Shown here piece by piece: positions 28,935 through 38,077 of a DNA stretch of 64,000 bases; within the stretch, counting starts at the first letter, position 1; every line of letters begins with the position of its first letter. This stretch comes from Pseudocitrobacter corydidari (GTDB lineage Bacteria > Pseudomonadota > Gammaproteobacteria > Enterobacterales > Enterobacteriaceae). The translations under genes and the position numbers were made by a program. A model generated the notes under the pieces. The model was not told where the DNA came from. It saw only the letters and a list, made by a program, of their open reading frames with translations, and searched no databases. Location of the stretch: assembly GCF_021172065.1 (NCBI RefSeq), contig NZ_CP087880.1, positions 4,440,583 to 4,504,582 on the forward strand. Direction: 5' to 3'.

Positions 28935-28993
28935 TGCGAAAGGTGAACGCTAATTTTCGAAAGTAAATGTGAGCCAGCGCGGATTGCTGGCTC
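28935..28993. promoter_or_regulatory. gatR promoter region: two CGAAAG-type operator motifs and a hairpin
   Basis: CGAAAGGTGAACG starts at 28937 and CGAAAGTAAATGTG at 28958, 21 nt (two helical turns) apart. The second is identical at all 14 bases to a site upstream of gatY (37875). Just beside it, TGAGCCAGC...GCTGGCTCA (28970-28994) forms a hairpin that may end gatD transcription. Assignment to GatR is inferred. Confidence 0.55.
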
Positions 28994-29000
28994 AGGCTAG

Positions 29001-30044
29001 TCAGGCCAGATTAAGCAGAATTTTTCCCTGCATTGGCGCACCGTTTAACGCTTTTACCGCGTGTGCAAAGTGCTCGGCATTACCGCTGCTGGCTATAAGA
29101 GGGGCCAGTTGCAGGCGTTTCTCAGTTAACAGGCGTGCGGCTGTTGCCCACTCCTCTCCCGGCCATGGGCTGGAGTAGTTCATCCAACTGCCTATCAGGC
29201 TTAATTCTTTACGCAATATTTGCCCAAATACGCCTGCGCTGAGTGTCAGGTCGTGATGCAAAGTACCTACCAGTGCCAGTTGCGCGCGCGGCCCGGCAAC
29301 TTCAATGGCTAAAGAAACCGTCTGCGGCGTGCCTGCGGTCTCCAGCACCAGTTGATCAAACGTAGCGTCTTTCATTGCGGCCTGAATTTCTGCGGCACTC
29401 ATCTCCCGGCTATTAAATGTGTGTGTTGCGCCTAATTGCTGCGCCAGTGCCAGTTTCTGTGGGTTGATATCTATCGCGGTGACGCTTTTGGCCCCCAGTT
29501 CTCGTGCGCATTGCAGGGCGAGCAGGCCAATCGTTCCGGCCCCAACAATAATGACATTTTTATCTTCGCAGCCTTGTGCCAGATGAAACGCATGTAGCCC
29601 GACGGTAATCGGTTCGATAAATGCTCCATCTGCCACAGGCATATCTGACGGTAAACGAAATAAATTGGCGCGTTTTACCACAATGTATTCTGCATTTCCG
29701 CCTTCACTACGCGAACCCACAAACTGATATTGCTTACATAAAGAGTAAAAACCTCTTTCACATTGCGGGCAGTGAAAACAGGGTAATAACGGCACGCAGG
29801 CCACAGCGTCACCGGGTTGTAAATCCTTGATGTTACTGCCGTAAGATTCAACATATCCGCTAAACTCATGGCCTAAAGTGATGGGGTAATAATGCGCGCC
29901 GTGGGCAAAGATACGGGGAATATCAGAACCGCAAAGGCCGGAACAAACCACTTTTACCAGCACGTCGTCTTCACTTTGCAGCTGTGGTACCGGGCGTTCT
30001 TCAACGCGCACGTCTCCCTCAGCATAAATTACAACTGATTTCAT
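29001..30044 (-). CDS. gatD: Galactitol-1-phosphate 5-dehydrogenase
   Basis: GatD oxidises galactitol-1-phosphate to tagatose-6-phosphate with NAD. It is a zinc-dependent medium-chain dehydrogenase of 347 residues. Catalytic zinc signature: SGLCGSD and GHEFSGY (about 35-70). Structural zinc cysteines lie in CFHCPQCERGFYSLC (about 89-103). Rossmann loop: GAGTIGLLALQ (about 167-177). The start ATG 30044 follows GGAGAACGTT; an in-frame codon 12 nt upstream is less well placed. It is the last enzyme gene of the gatZABCD unit. Confidence 0.93.
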   Translation of the reverse strand: MKSVVIYAEGDVRVEERPVPQLQSEDDVLVKVVCSGLCGSDIPRIFAHGAHYYPITLGHEFSGYVESYGSNIKDLQPGDAVACVPLLPCFHCPQCERGFYSLCKQYQFVGSRSEGGNAEYIVVKRANLFRLPSDMPVADGAFIEPITVGLHAFHLAQGCEDKNVIIVGAGTIGLLALQCARELGAKSVTAIDINPQKLALAQQLGATHTFNSREMSAAEIQAAMKDATFDQLVLETAGTPQTVSLAIEVAGPRAQLALVGTLHHDLTLSAGVFGQILRKELSLIGSWMNYSSPWPGEEWATAARLLTEKRLQLAPLIASSGNAEHFAHAVKALNGAPMQGKILLNLA

Positions 30045-30067
30045 AACGTTCTCCAAAAATACAAAAG

Positions 30068-30084
30068 GGGGAGCATCGCTCCCC
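30068..30084 (-). terminator. Hairpin between gatC and gatD
   Basis: GGGGAGC ATC GCTCCCC lies in the gap between gatC and gatD. Read on the minus strand it is followed by CTTTTGTATTTTT, so it could be a partial terminator or mRNA-stability structure lowering gatD relative to the PTS genes. Confidence 0.55.
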
Positions 30085-30089
30085 TGAAA

Positions 30090-35937: not shown

Positions 35938-35963
35938 AAGCAGACCTTATATTGTAATTTAGC

Positions 35964-36878
35964 CTACAGCTTTCTGACGTGGATTTGCGAAAGTAAGGTT
36001 TCTATTGCCGCAAGTTGGCCTAATCCGGCAGAACTTGCGACATCAGCGCCTGTTGCACTGGCAAGAGATAAGGCATATTCCACTTCTCCTGTAGATAACC
36101 ACTGGCTGAGAAAGGCAGCCAGTGCGGCATCGCCTGCACAGGCGGAACTCACCAGATCAACCGTTGGCGCGCTACAAAACCAGTAATCGATCCCATTGGA
36201 GAAATACATTCCTTTAGCACCAAGGGTTAGCAGAACATTTTGTGCACCAAGTGCATGTAAAGTGGTAAGCGTATTTTTCGCATCATTGTCGTCTAAGACA
36301 GTTAAACCGAATATTGCTTTAACCTCTTCATCATTGGGTTTAATTAATAACGGTTTGAACTCCAGTAACTGACGTAATGATGGATGACTAATATCTAAAA
36401 TCACGCCGATATCTTTTTGCTGACAAATATGCATTATTTCTGCGTAAAAGCGGCTTTCAATACCTTGTGGCAGACTGCCGCTTATCACCAGATATTCTGC
36501 ATCGGGCAGTTGCGAAATAATCGTGATGATTTGATGTTTACATTCATCTGGAATATATGAGCCAGGGTTGACGAGTTTATACTCCTGCTGACCGTCATGA
36601 ATGAAAATATTAATCCGCGTTGGTTCATCTACCCATGCTGGTGTAACTGGCATTTTTCGGGTACGCAGGCTTTCAACAATATAATGCCCGGTGAAACCAC
36701 CAAAAATGCCTAATATATGCGCAGGTATTTGAAAGTGATCCAGGACCAGCGCAACATTTACCCCTTTGCCATTCGGGCAAAACTCGGTGTGGTGAGTGCG
36801 ATTGACAATATTTGGCTGTAAAGGATCGCTAAATATATTCATATCGATCGCGCTATTAAGCGTTAGCGTGTAGATCAC
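35964..36878 (-). CDS. tagK: PfkB-family tagatose-1-phosphate kinase (1-phosphofructokinase-like)
   Basis: It is related to 1-phosphofructokinase and would make tagatose-1,6-bisphosphate for the GatYZ aldolase. The start is GTG 36878 (MIYTLTLNSAIDM) with GAGGAATCGCCA before it, giving 304 residues. PfkB features: PNGKGVNVA (35-43), SGSLPQG (133-139), and the catalytic Asp250, here in SACAGDA rather than the usual GAGDS. It begins 10 nt after gatY. Substrate assignment is from context. Confidence 0.8.
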   Translation of the reverse strand: MIYTLTLNSAIDMNIFSDPLQPNIVNRTHHTEFCPNGKGVNVALVLDHFQIPAHILGIFGGFTGHYIVESLRTRKMPVTPAWVDEPTRINIFIHDGQQEYKLVNPGSYIPDECKHQIITIISQLPDAEYLVISGSLPQGIESRFYAEIMHICQQKDIGVILDISHPSLRQLLEFKPLLIKPNDEEVKAIFGLTVLDDNDAKNTLTTLHALGAQNVLLTLGAKGMYFSNGIDYWFCSAPTVDLVSSACAGDAALAAFLSQWLSTGEVEYALSLASATGADVASSAGLGQLAAIETLLSQIHVRKL

Positions 36879-36888
36879 TGGCGATTCC

Positions 36889-37743
36889 TCACAGTTGCCC
36901 TTCACAGCCGCAAACATGGATCACTTTGCGTACCACCTCTTTCATCGCCTGTTTTGCTGGTTGCATATAGTGGCGGGGATCATTGGCTTTCGGGTTTTGC
37001 AGGAAATACTCTTTTAAGGCGTCGGAGAAGGCGATTTTCAGTTCGGTGGCAACATTGACTTTGCATACCCCAAGGCTGATGGCCTGGCGAATATCACTTT
37101 CCGGCAAACCAGATGCCCCATGCAATACCAGAGGGATATCCACCAGAGCGCGTATTTCTGCCAGTCGCTCAAAATCGAGTTTAGGTTCAGCGGCATACAT
37201 ACCGTGTGCCGTGCCGATAGCAACCGCCAGCGAATCAATGCCGGTGCGCGCCACAAACTCACGCGCTTGTTGTGGATTGGTGTAAAGAGCATCTTTGCTG
37301 TCTACCACTAAATCATCTTCGATCCCACCAAGGCGGCCCAGTTCTGCCTCCACGCTGGTGTCGTAGCGATGGCAAAAATCGACCACGCTTTTCACCAGTG
37401 CCACATTCTCTTCAAAGGGAAAGTGGGAACCATCGATCATGACTGAACGGATCCCTGCCATAACTTTGCTTTCGATATCGGCTAACGATTCATGATGATC
37501 CAGATGAATGGCCAGCGGCAGATTGTATTCGCGAGCCAGATCGCCCGCGATCGCCACAATGTTGCCCATTCCGGCATAGCTAAACGTGCCTGGTGTTCCG
37601 GCGACGATCAGCGGTGAGCGCATTTCTGCGGCGGTTTCTACCACCACCTGCAAGGTTTCCAGGTTATGGATGTTAAAGGCAGGCACGGCATAGCCTGCAT
37701 GCTGGGCCTTCTGGAGCATATTTTTACTGGAAATAATGAACAT
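36889..37743 (-). CDS. gatY: Tagatose-1,6-bisphosphate aldolase catalytic subunit GatY
   Basis: This class II zinc aldolase splits tagatose-1,6-bisphosphate into dihydroxyacetone phosphate and glyceraldehyde-3-phosphate. The 284 residues equal E. coli GatY in length. Zinc/catalytic segments: HLDHH (80-84), GTAHGMY (about 179-185) and LHGASG (about 207-212); [11 protein letters not shown] is at 20-30. It is the first gene of the minus-strand operon; GatZ is its partner. KbaY is the closest alternative name. Confidence 0.92.
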
Positions 37744-38077
37744 AGCGGTCTCCGTTAATAACTTTCGAAATTAAAGTTTAAAATAAAAATAACCTTCGTT
37801 TTGAAAGTAATGTAACGATCATTGCCACGCGTGATTGTGATCATCAACACAAAAACAGGAACATTTTTCTTAAACGAAAGTAAATGTGTGGATTTAAATT
37901 TTATTTTGTAAGTAAATAGGAGATATGAAATTTCTATAATCAATTGATTTTATTGCGATGTTTTACTGTTGAGCATTCGGTAACGTGGTGCAAAATTGAC
38001 ATCCCCTGTCAGAAGTTTAAAAATGAAAGTTAAAGCACGGGATAACTCCCCGACGAAGCGGAAAAAAAGGGTATGTT
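37744..38077. promoter_or_regulatory. Divergent control region gatY / DeoR-kinase pair
   Basis: This 334-bp AT-rich gap has no gene. It contains TTTCGAAA (37763-37770), CTTCGTTTTGAAAGTAATG (from 37794), CGAAAGTAAATGTG (37875-37888) and GAAAGTTAAAG near 38025, all variants of the motif at the gatR promoter. A good CRP-type site, TGTGATCATCAACACA, lies at 37836-37851. The layout fits repression by GatR and activation by CRP. Confidence 0.6.

Follow-up and report, generated by a model that had tools for sequence, protein, structure and literature searches.

A repeated 14-mer and two candidate operator sets in the gat/tag gene cluster of Pseudocitrobacter corydidari

Does an identical 14-nucleotide word upstream of two genes of a gat cluster mark operators of one and the same repressor? 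The question arises from a 64,000-nucleotide stretch of the Pseudocitrobacter corydidari genome (contig NZ_CP087880.1, positions 4,440,583 to 4,504,582; hereafter the window), in which CGAAAGTAAATGTG occurs at 28958-28971, upstream of the DeoR-family repressor gene gatR, and in the same orientation at 37875-37888, upstream of gatY. An earlier note, made from the letters of the window alone, read these copies and several variants as the binding pattern of a DeoR-family repressor, most likely GatR, acting at the gatR, gatZ and gatY promoters. We favor another arrangement, with a probability of roughly 0.7: the cluster would carry two related but distinct operator sets, one bound by GatR at gatR and at the gat promoter before gatZ, the other bound, between gatY and the divergent DeoR-family gene that we label tagR, by TagR. 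The operator pattern is real at gatR and gatZ and was over-read at gatY. DeoR-family repressors with CRP at a sugar operon are of a familiar general kind, and we regard this as an ordinary system with an instructive twist.

The repeated word and its conserved hexamer

Both copies of the 14-mer are present as described, and the 5,015,040-bp genome (one contig) holds no further exact copy. The repeat alone means little because the window contains about 68 independent repeated 14-mers. Allowing up to three mismatches, the window has 7 matches against a shuffle mean of 5.42, and the genome, allowing up to two, has 28 against 28 for a backwards control, so that the whole word is enriched in neither. 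Among the three intergenic regions, a 14-mer shared between regions arose in only 12 of 5000 shuffles. The 14-mer was considered as the conserved unit and discarded; conservation is confined to the hexamer CTTTCG (reverse complement CGAAAG). Copies of this hexamer are in excess before gatZ (five, matched by 0 of 5000 shuffles) and at gatR (two, matched by 21 of 5000), and in weak excess at gatY (two, matched by 95 of 5000).

Neighboring CGAAAG copies do lie 20–21 nt apart, at 28937/28958 (21 bp) and 33614/33634 (20 bp). The close variants reported at gatR and gatZ (28937, 33614 and 33634) are sound, and those at gatY are loose: that listed at 37763 is a CTTTCG in the opposite orientation, starting at 37762; that at 37795 is TGAAAG at 37802; and that near 38025 is TGAAAG at 38024. 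The list lacked a gatR unit at 28927-28932, the units at 33535, 33552 and 33568, and a terminator-like hairpin at 28970-28994, which overlaps the 14-mer. Direct CGAAAG pairs 20–21 bp apart occur at three places in the genome, two of which are gatR and gatZ; such pairs are not rare per se (controls gave 2 and 4). An inverted pair, CTTTCG...CGAAAG, was also considered as a genome-wide GatR signature and rejected (4 places per strand, against 12 for the control).

CTTTCG units at gatR and before gatZ

We aligned 51 gatR upstream regions and tallied 42 of them, leaving out nine distant rows (L048-L052, L054-L057). Three units, located -74, -53 and -43 from the start codon, are kept in 41, 40 and 42 of the 42 rows, respectively (Table 1). 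They are spaced 21 and then 10 bp apart (0/21/31), an arrangement that nearly all tallied rows preserve to within 1 bp, so that all three would lie on one face of the helix. Units 2 and 3 appear to sit in the spacer of the predicted gatR promoter. These phased units are very probably GatR operators. The remaining eight letters of the gatR copy, CACATTTA, are by their row count not a conserved operator; they make up the tail of the terminator-like hairpin between gatD and gatR. Five loci (L032, L034, L036, L045 and L047) have gatR beside rsmI and a gat operon that is reduced or not seen in the stretch, and largely keep the operator units.

In classical gat operons it is the gatY promoter to which the gatZ promoter of the window can be aligned. 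For the 27-row tally of this gat promoter we used the window, a congeneric genome (G002), a probable Salmonella LT2 and 24 classical loci, leaving out the gatZ rows L023, L024, L038-L042 and L044 and the gatY rows L033, L048, L049 and L050. Six units are arrayed around an AATCACA that, by the usual consensus, resembles a CRP half-site; the predicted start site lies at about 33553. Units 2 and 6 are invariant, and units 1, 3, 4 and 5 appear as CTTTCG or CTTTCA or have lost an outer letter. Judged from these columns, the array very probably consists of GatR operators. The unit pattern is kept in genomes that lack TagR. A TagR search covered 43 gat genomes at a threshold of 1e-50 (of 49 loci, L046, L009 and L054-L057 were left out), and in 31 of the 43 a match is missing. 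The reading of GatR at gatR and gatZ is supported by 42 and 27 rows, mostly from TagR-negative genomes.

The gat promoter seems now to drive gatZ because the original gatY has been lost. Of 28 classical loci, 23 were scored for their leaders and five without CGGAG on both sides were left out. On the left side of CGGAG, the ribosome-binding motif, the gatZ leader of the window shares 18–27 of 30 letters with the classical gatY leader and 5–18 of 30 with the classical gatZ leader; on the right side, it matches the classical gatZ start at 4–13 of 13 letters and the gatY start at 1–4 of 11. The leader (33517-33560) is hence a hybrid, with the classical gatY leader upstream of CGGAG and the classical gatZ start downstream. 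On the simplest reading, the classical gatY would have been lost by deletion between two CGGAG repeats, and the hand-over of its promoter to gatZ would be a clear case of gene loss rewiring an operon. By sequence identity (Table 1), the gatY of the window is the ortholog of the gatY of the tag module, not of the gatY of the classical gat operon. One Citrobacter genome (L011/L107) carries both a classical gatY-gatZ operon and a tag module with its own gatY, possibly an intermediate state.

Sites between gatY and tagR

Together with the window, 16 other genomes gave 17 gatY-tagR regions, 14 of which were tallied (L117, L119 and L120 were left out). In what follows, L105 and L122 are the gatY stretch and the gatR locus of the congeneric genome, and L106 is a 15.5-kb stretch of the probable LT2. 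S2, which holds the operator-like part of the second 14-mer copy, reads TTTCATTT in 12 of the 14 rows, TTTCTTTT in one and TTTCGTTT in the window alone, its unit having A as sixth letter in 12 rows, T in one and G in one. It lies 72 bp from S1 in 13 rows and 71 bp in the other. The CRP-type site proposed at 37836-37851 holds up: it agrees with 9 of the 10 letters of the CRP consensus core, TGTGA-N6-TCACA, and its right half is GATCAC or CATCAC in all 14 rows. If TACATT (37809-37814) is the gatY -10 element, this site would be centered at -41.5 and S1 would span the start site, predicted at about 37802. On the tagR side, a promoter-like TTGACA-17-AAAAAT (37996-38024) is the predicted tagR promoter.

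Table 1. Features of the cluster in window coordinates; row counts refer to the tallies described in the text, and promoter elements and start sites are predictions
Feature	Position	Strand	Observation
gatR, DeoR-family repressor gene	28116..28889	-	PF08220 60 bits and PF00455 171.4 bits, both above cut-offs
Predicted gatR promoter, TTCACC-17 nt-TAAACT	28919..28947	-	read by hand from conserved columns
GatR operator unit 3 (CCTTCG), in predicted -35/-10 spacer	28927..28932	-	CCTTCG 36, CTTTCG 6 of 42 rows
GatR operator unit 2 (CTTTCG)	28937..28942	-	CTTTCG 24, CTTTCA 16, other 2 of 42 rows
GatR operator unit 1 (CTTTCG), operator part of 14-mer	28958..28963	-	41/42 rows
CACATTTA, other 8 letters of 14-mer, tail of gatD/gatR hairpin	28964..28971	-	16/42 rows; T-rich tail
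Terminator-like hairpin between gatD and gatR	28970..28994	-	9 pairs, 6 GC
gat promoter unit 6 (CGAAAG), leader	33535..33540	-	27/27 rows
gat promoter unit 5 (CTTTCG), near predicted start site	33552..33557	-	CTTTCG 19, ATTTCG 6, GTTTCG 1, CTTTCA 1 of 27
Predicted -10, TATAAA	33560..33565	-	TATA as first four letters in 27/27
gat promoter unit 4 (CGAAAG)	33568..33573	-	CGAAAC 13, CGAAAG 11, other 3 of 27
CRP-like half-site, AATCACA	33585..33591	-	25/27 rows
gat promoter unit 3 (CTTTCA in window)	33605..33610	-	CTTTCA 13, CTTTCG 7, other 7 of 27
gat promoter unit 2 (CTTTCG)	33614..33619	-	27/27 rows
gat promoter unit 1 (CTTTCG), 20 bp from unit 2	33634..33639	-	CTTTCG 15, CTTTCA 9, other 3 of 27
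gatY	36889..37743	-	shares 93 and 80% identity with the two gatY genes of L011/L107
Site S0, inverted repeat AACTTTAATTTCGAAAGTT	37760..37778	-	CGAAAG in window, L105 and L106 only, 3/14 rows
Site S1, TTACTTTCAAAACGAAGG, over predicted gatY start site	37793..37810	-	begins TTACTTTCAAA in 14/14 rows
CRP-like site TGTGATCATCAACACA	37836..37851	.	centre about -41.5 from inferred start; right half fixed 32 bp from S1, 14/14
Site S2, holds operator-like part of second 14-mer copy	37869..37883	-	CTTTCG in window only
Site S3, TAACTTTCATTTTTAAA, over predicted tagR -10	38016..38032	-	identical in 13/14 rows; sole exact genome copy
tagR, divergent DeoR-family regulator gene	38078..38911	+	PF08220 and PF00455 above cut-offs

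S1, S2 and S3 are all kept in four of the 14 genomes that have no GatR match at E <= 1e-60 (L110, L115, L116 and L118, the last with a gatR-like stretch, 35%, nearby). Because these sites persist without GatR, the neighboring DeoR protein (38078-38911) is the likelier binder at gatY, and from their conservation the three ACTTTCA-type sites are very probably the TagR binding set. The exact 14-mer fares poorly as a link to this promoter: its CACATTTA part is present in 16 of 42 gatR rows, and the G that completes the hexamer at S2 in one of 14. The congeneric genome has no exact 14-mer in L105 and one in L122, the 15.5-kb L106 has none, and S2 in both genomes is CTTTCA. The earlier note proposed a motif search in relatives and held that loss from genomes keeping the operon would refute it; the motif is kept at gatR and gatZ, and the 14-mer is lost at gatY from these two genomes, both of which keep the operon. 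Across the aligned genomes, then, the 14-mer identity is window-specific and is not evidence that GatR links gatY. Two separate stretches had been read as one word, because of an A-to-G difference at S2 and a terminator tail at gatR. An exact repeated word can in this way link two separate operators by chance.

The two sets differ at the sixth base of the hexamer. GatR units in TagR-negative genomes have 188 G and 30 A, and TagR-type sites in GatR-negative genomes have 0 G and 12 A (Fisher p = 3e-10, a figure that overstates the contrast, the rows being related). In this tally L009 is placed among the TagR-positive genomes, its genome being assumed to be of the same kind as G002. As an absolute rule the sixth base was rejected, A being present in 30 of 218 GatR units.

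In the mechanism that we infer, GatR would bind the 0/21/31-bp phased units over the spacer of the gatR promoter and repress its own gene, and would bind the six units around the CRP-like half-site, the -10 and the leader to repress gatZABCD. TagR would bind S1 over the gatY start site and S2, 72 bp upstream beyond the CRP-like site, to repress the gatY operon, and S3 over the tagR -10 to repress itself. The inducer of each repressor would be a sugar phosphate, and the activator would be CRP. Such an operator code, which is testable, would separate two paralogous repressors that have to make do with one aldolase gene between them.

Several observations weigh against this assignment. S0 carries CGAAAG in three rows, those of the window, G002 and the probable LT2, so that GatR contact at gatY is possible in this lineage. 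CTTTCA in 30 of 218 GatR units means that GatR may recognize TagR-type sites. In eight other TagR-positive loci (from Klebsiella, Kluyvera, Buttiauxella and one Enterobacter-labelled genome) the gatZ promoter lacks the array, with only the proximal CGAAAG in five, and of the nine distant gatR loci outside the tally most retain unit 3 alone or no unit at all. How GatR controls the Salmonella Typhimurium gat cluster is reportedly the subject of Nolle et al. (2017, J Bacteriol, 10.1128/JB.00595-16). A Salmonella study is reported to have tested GatR on the gatY, gatZ and gatR promoters.

Control of all three promoters by GatR alone, with the gatY 14-mer a true GatR operator, would explain the identical word, whose sharing between regions is rare in shuffles, and the CGAAAG at S0 in three genomes. 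According to PMC7972205, a gatR mutant without the DNA-binding part cannot repress 'the gat promoters' of Salmonella, and use of both galactitol and tagatose requires STM3254. This gene is part of the gatY operon, so that the gatY promoter must respond to galactitol somehow. Control by GatR alone is nevertheless quite unlikely: CTTTCG stands at S2 in a single row and in neither the congeneric genome nor the probable LT2, the gatY-tagR sites persist in four GatR-negative genomes, and part of the gatR 14-mer is a terminator tail. Galactitol use requires the gatY operon, which leaves two courses: TagR senses a common intermediate, or GatR acts at gatY too. The second course amounts to dual control, in which TagR owns the gatY-tagR sites, GatR binds some of them as well, and galactitol and tagatose both induce the common aldolase. 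We hold this as a tentative possibility. With the classical gatY gone from this cluster, the tag-type gatY should be the one that galactitol use relies on; GatR units tolerate A at the sixth base; and S0 has its CGAAAG in this lineage. Yet eight Klebsiella-type TagR-positive loci (L023, L024, L038-L042 and L044) likewise have no classical gatY in the stretches examined, and in seven of them neither CTTTCG nor CGAAAG occurs within 300 bp upstream of gatY. A common intermediate sensed by TagR would serve equally. More speculatively, and doubtfully, the regulon may have been caught merging: the deletion between ribosome-binding repeats would have set a GatR-controlled promoter before gatZ, galactitol use would now need the tag-module gatY, and single-letter changes (at S0 in the lineage, at S2 in this genome alone) would make TagR sites readable by GatR. 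If so, the common aldolase would come under both repressors.

The hexamer may instead be a generic half-site of the AgaR/GatR/TagR group, which would allow no assignment to a single regulator from sequence. In E. coli, several CTTTCG/CTTTCA units lie upstream of agaR-kbaZ and agaS, and AgaR shares 35% identity with GatR and 32% with TagR. Because AgaR promoters carry like units, the half-site can be seen as a trait of the group, and some overlap in binding is plausible; the sharp sixth-base bias between the sets and the persistence of each set without the other regulator make an indiscriminate half-site unlikely. Chance similarity without any regulatory role fits the 14-mer, which is not enriched as a whole in a window where repeated 14-mers are common. 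For the hexamer units it is barely credible, being contradicted by their excess at gatZ and gatR and by position-specific conservation in dozens of rows, and it holds only for the identity of the 14-mer. Separate GatR and TagR sets remain our preferred reading.

Genes, genomes and related systems

From rsmI toward garD, the cluster comprises gatR, gatD, gatC, gatB, gatA, gatZ, an IIA/HPr gene, a fructose-type IIBC gene, a 1-phosphofructokinase-type kinase gene and gatY. Divergent from gatY, toward garD, follow tagR, a TagKinase-like kinase gene, yhaV and prlF, the last two named by synteny with E. coli. The product of gatR, the final gene of the gat cluster, has 257 aa; it does not match the NCBIfam GatR model, and its top NCBIfam model is AgaR (229.6 bits, under the cut-off of 260). 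No Rfam family matches within 28000-40000. Scans for sigma-70 promoters and terminators were overall not above shuffles, and individual matches are used only where conserved columns back them.

TagR matches at E <= 1e-60 occur in 17 of 392 genomes of the family, and in the loci examined the tag module and tagR are present or absent together, so that none of these loci offers an orthologous promoter without TagR. Within the genus (four genomes including the window), G002 has tagR at 98% and gatR at 97% identity to the window, and the two remaining genomes have no close match to either. A metagenome-assembled contig labelled uncultured Pseudocitrobacter (L009) shares rsmI at 100% and gatR and lpoA at 97% identity. 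Four genomes appear under two locus names, in different tallies: L011/L107, L044/L109, L042/L111 and L038/L113.

The Salmonella Typhimurium cluster, as represented by L106, is laid out like that of the window (garD, kinase, deoR, gatY ... gatR, rsmI) with a GatR 92% identical, but lacks the exact 14-mer and has CTTTCA at S2. Shakeri-Garakani et al. (2004) reportedly described a gat/tag cluster at the 70.5-min site; there too the region from garD to rsmI combines gat genes with tagatose-type kinase, transporter and IIA/HPr genes, and what is worked out here for the window is the operator sets and the promoter hand-over to gatZ. E. coli AgaR, encoded at the same chromosomal site, resembles GatR and TagR in family, divergent promoter and units, but is distant in sequence and controls different genes. 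Our literature search found no title or abstract opening announcing GatR or TagR operator sequences, although such sequences may have been published, and the available material of PMC7972205 contains no operator sequence. GatY is coregulated with the tagatose transporter and kinase, according to PMC10101011.

The TagKinase-like gene (38922-39869), 3′ of tagR, scores 365 bits against an NCBIfam TagKinase cut-off of 420 and adjoins tagR in 16 of 16 gatY-tagR stretches from other genomes. The sensor domain of TagR is degenerate relative to GatR and AgaR, with GAGEV in place of the DSGST stretch and MVDHIS in place of the GADGID stretch of GatR, and its PF00455 score is 53.9 bits against 171.4 for GatR. 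Its effector may differ.

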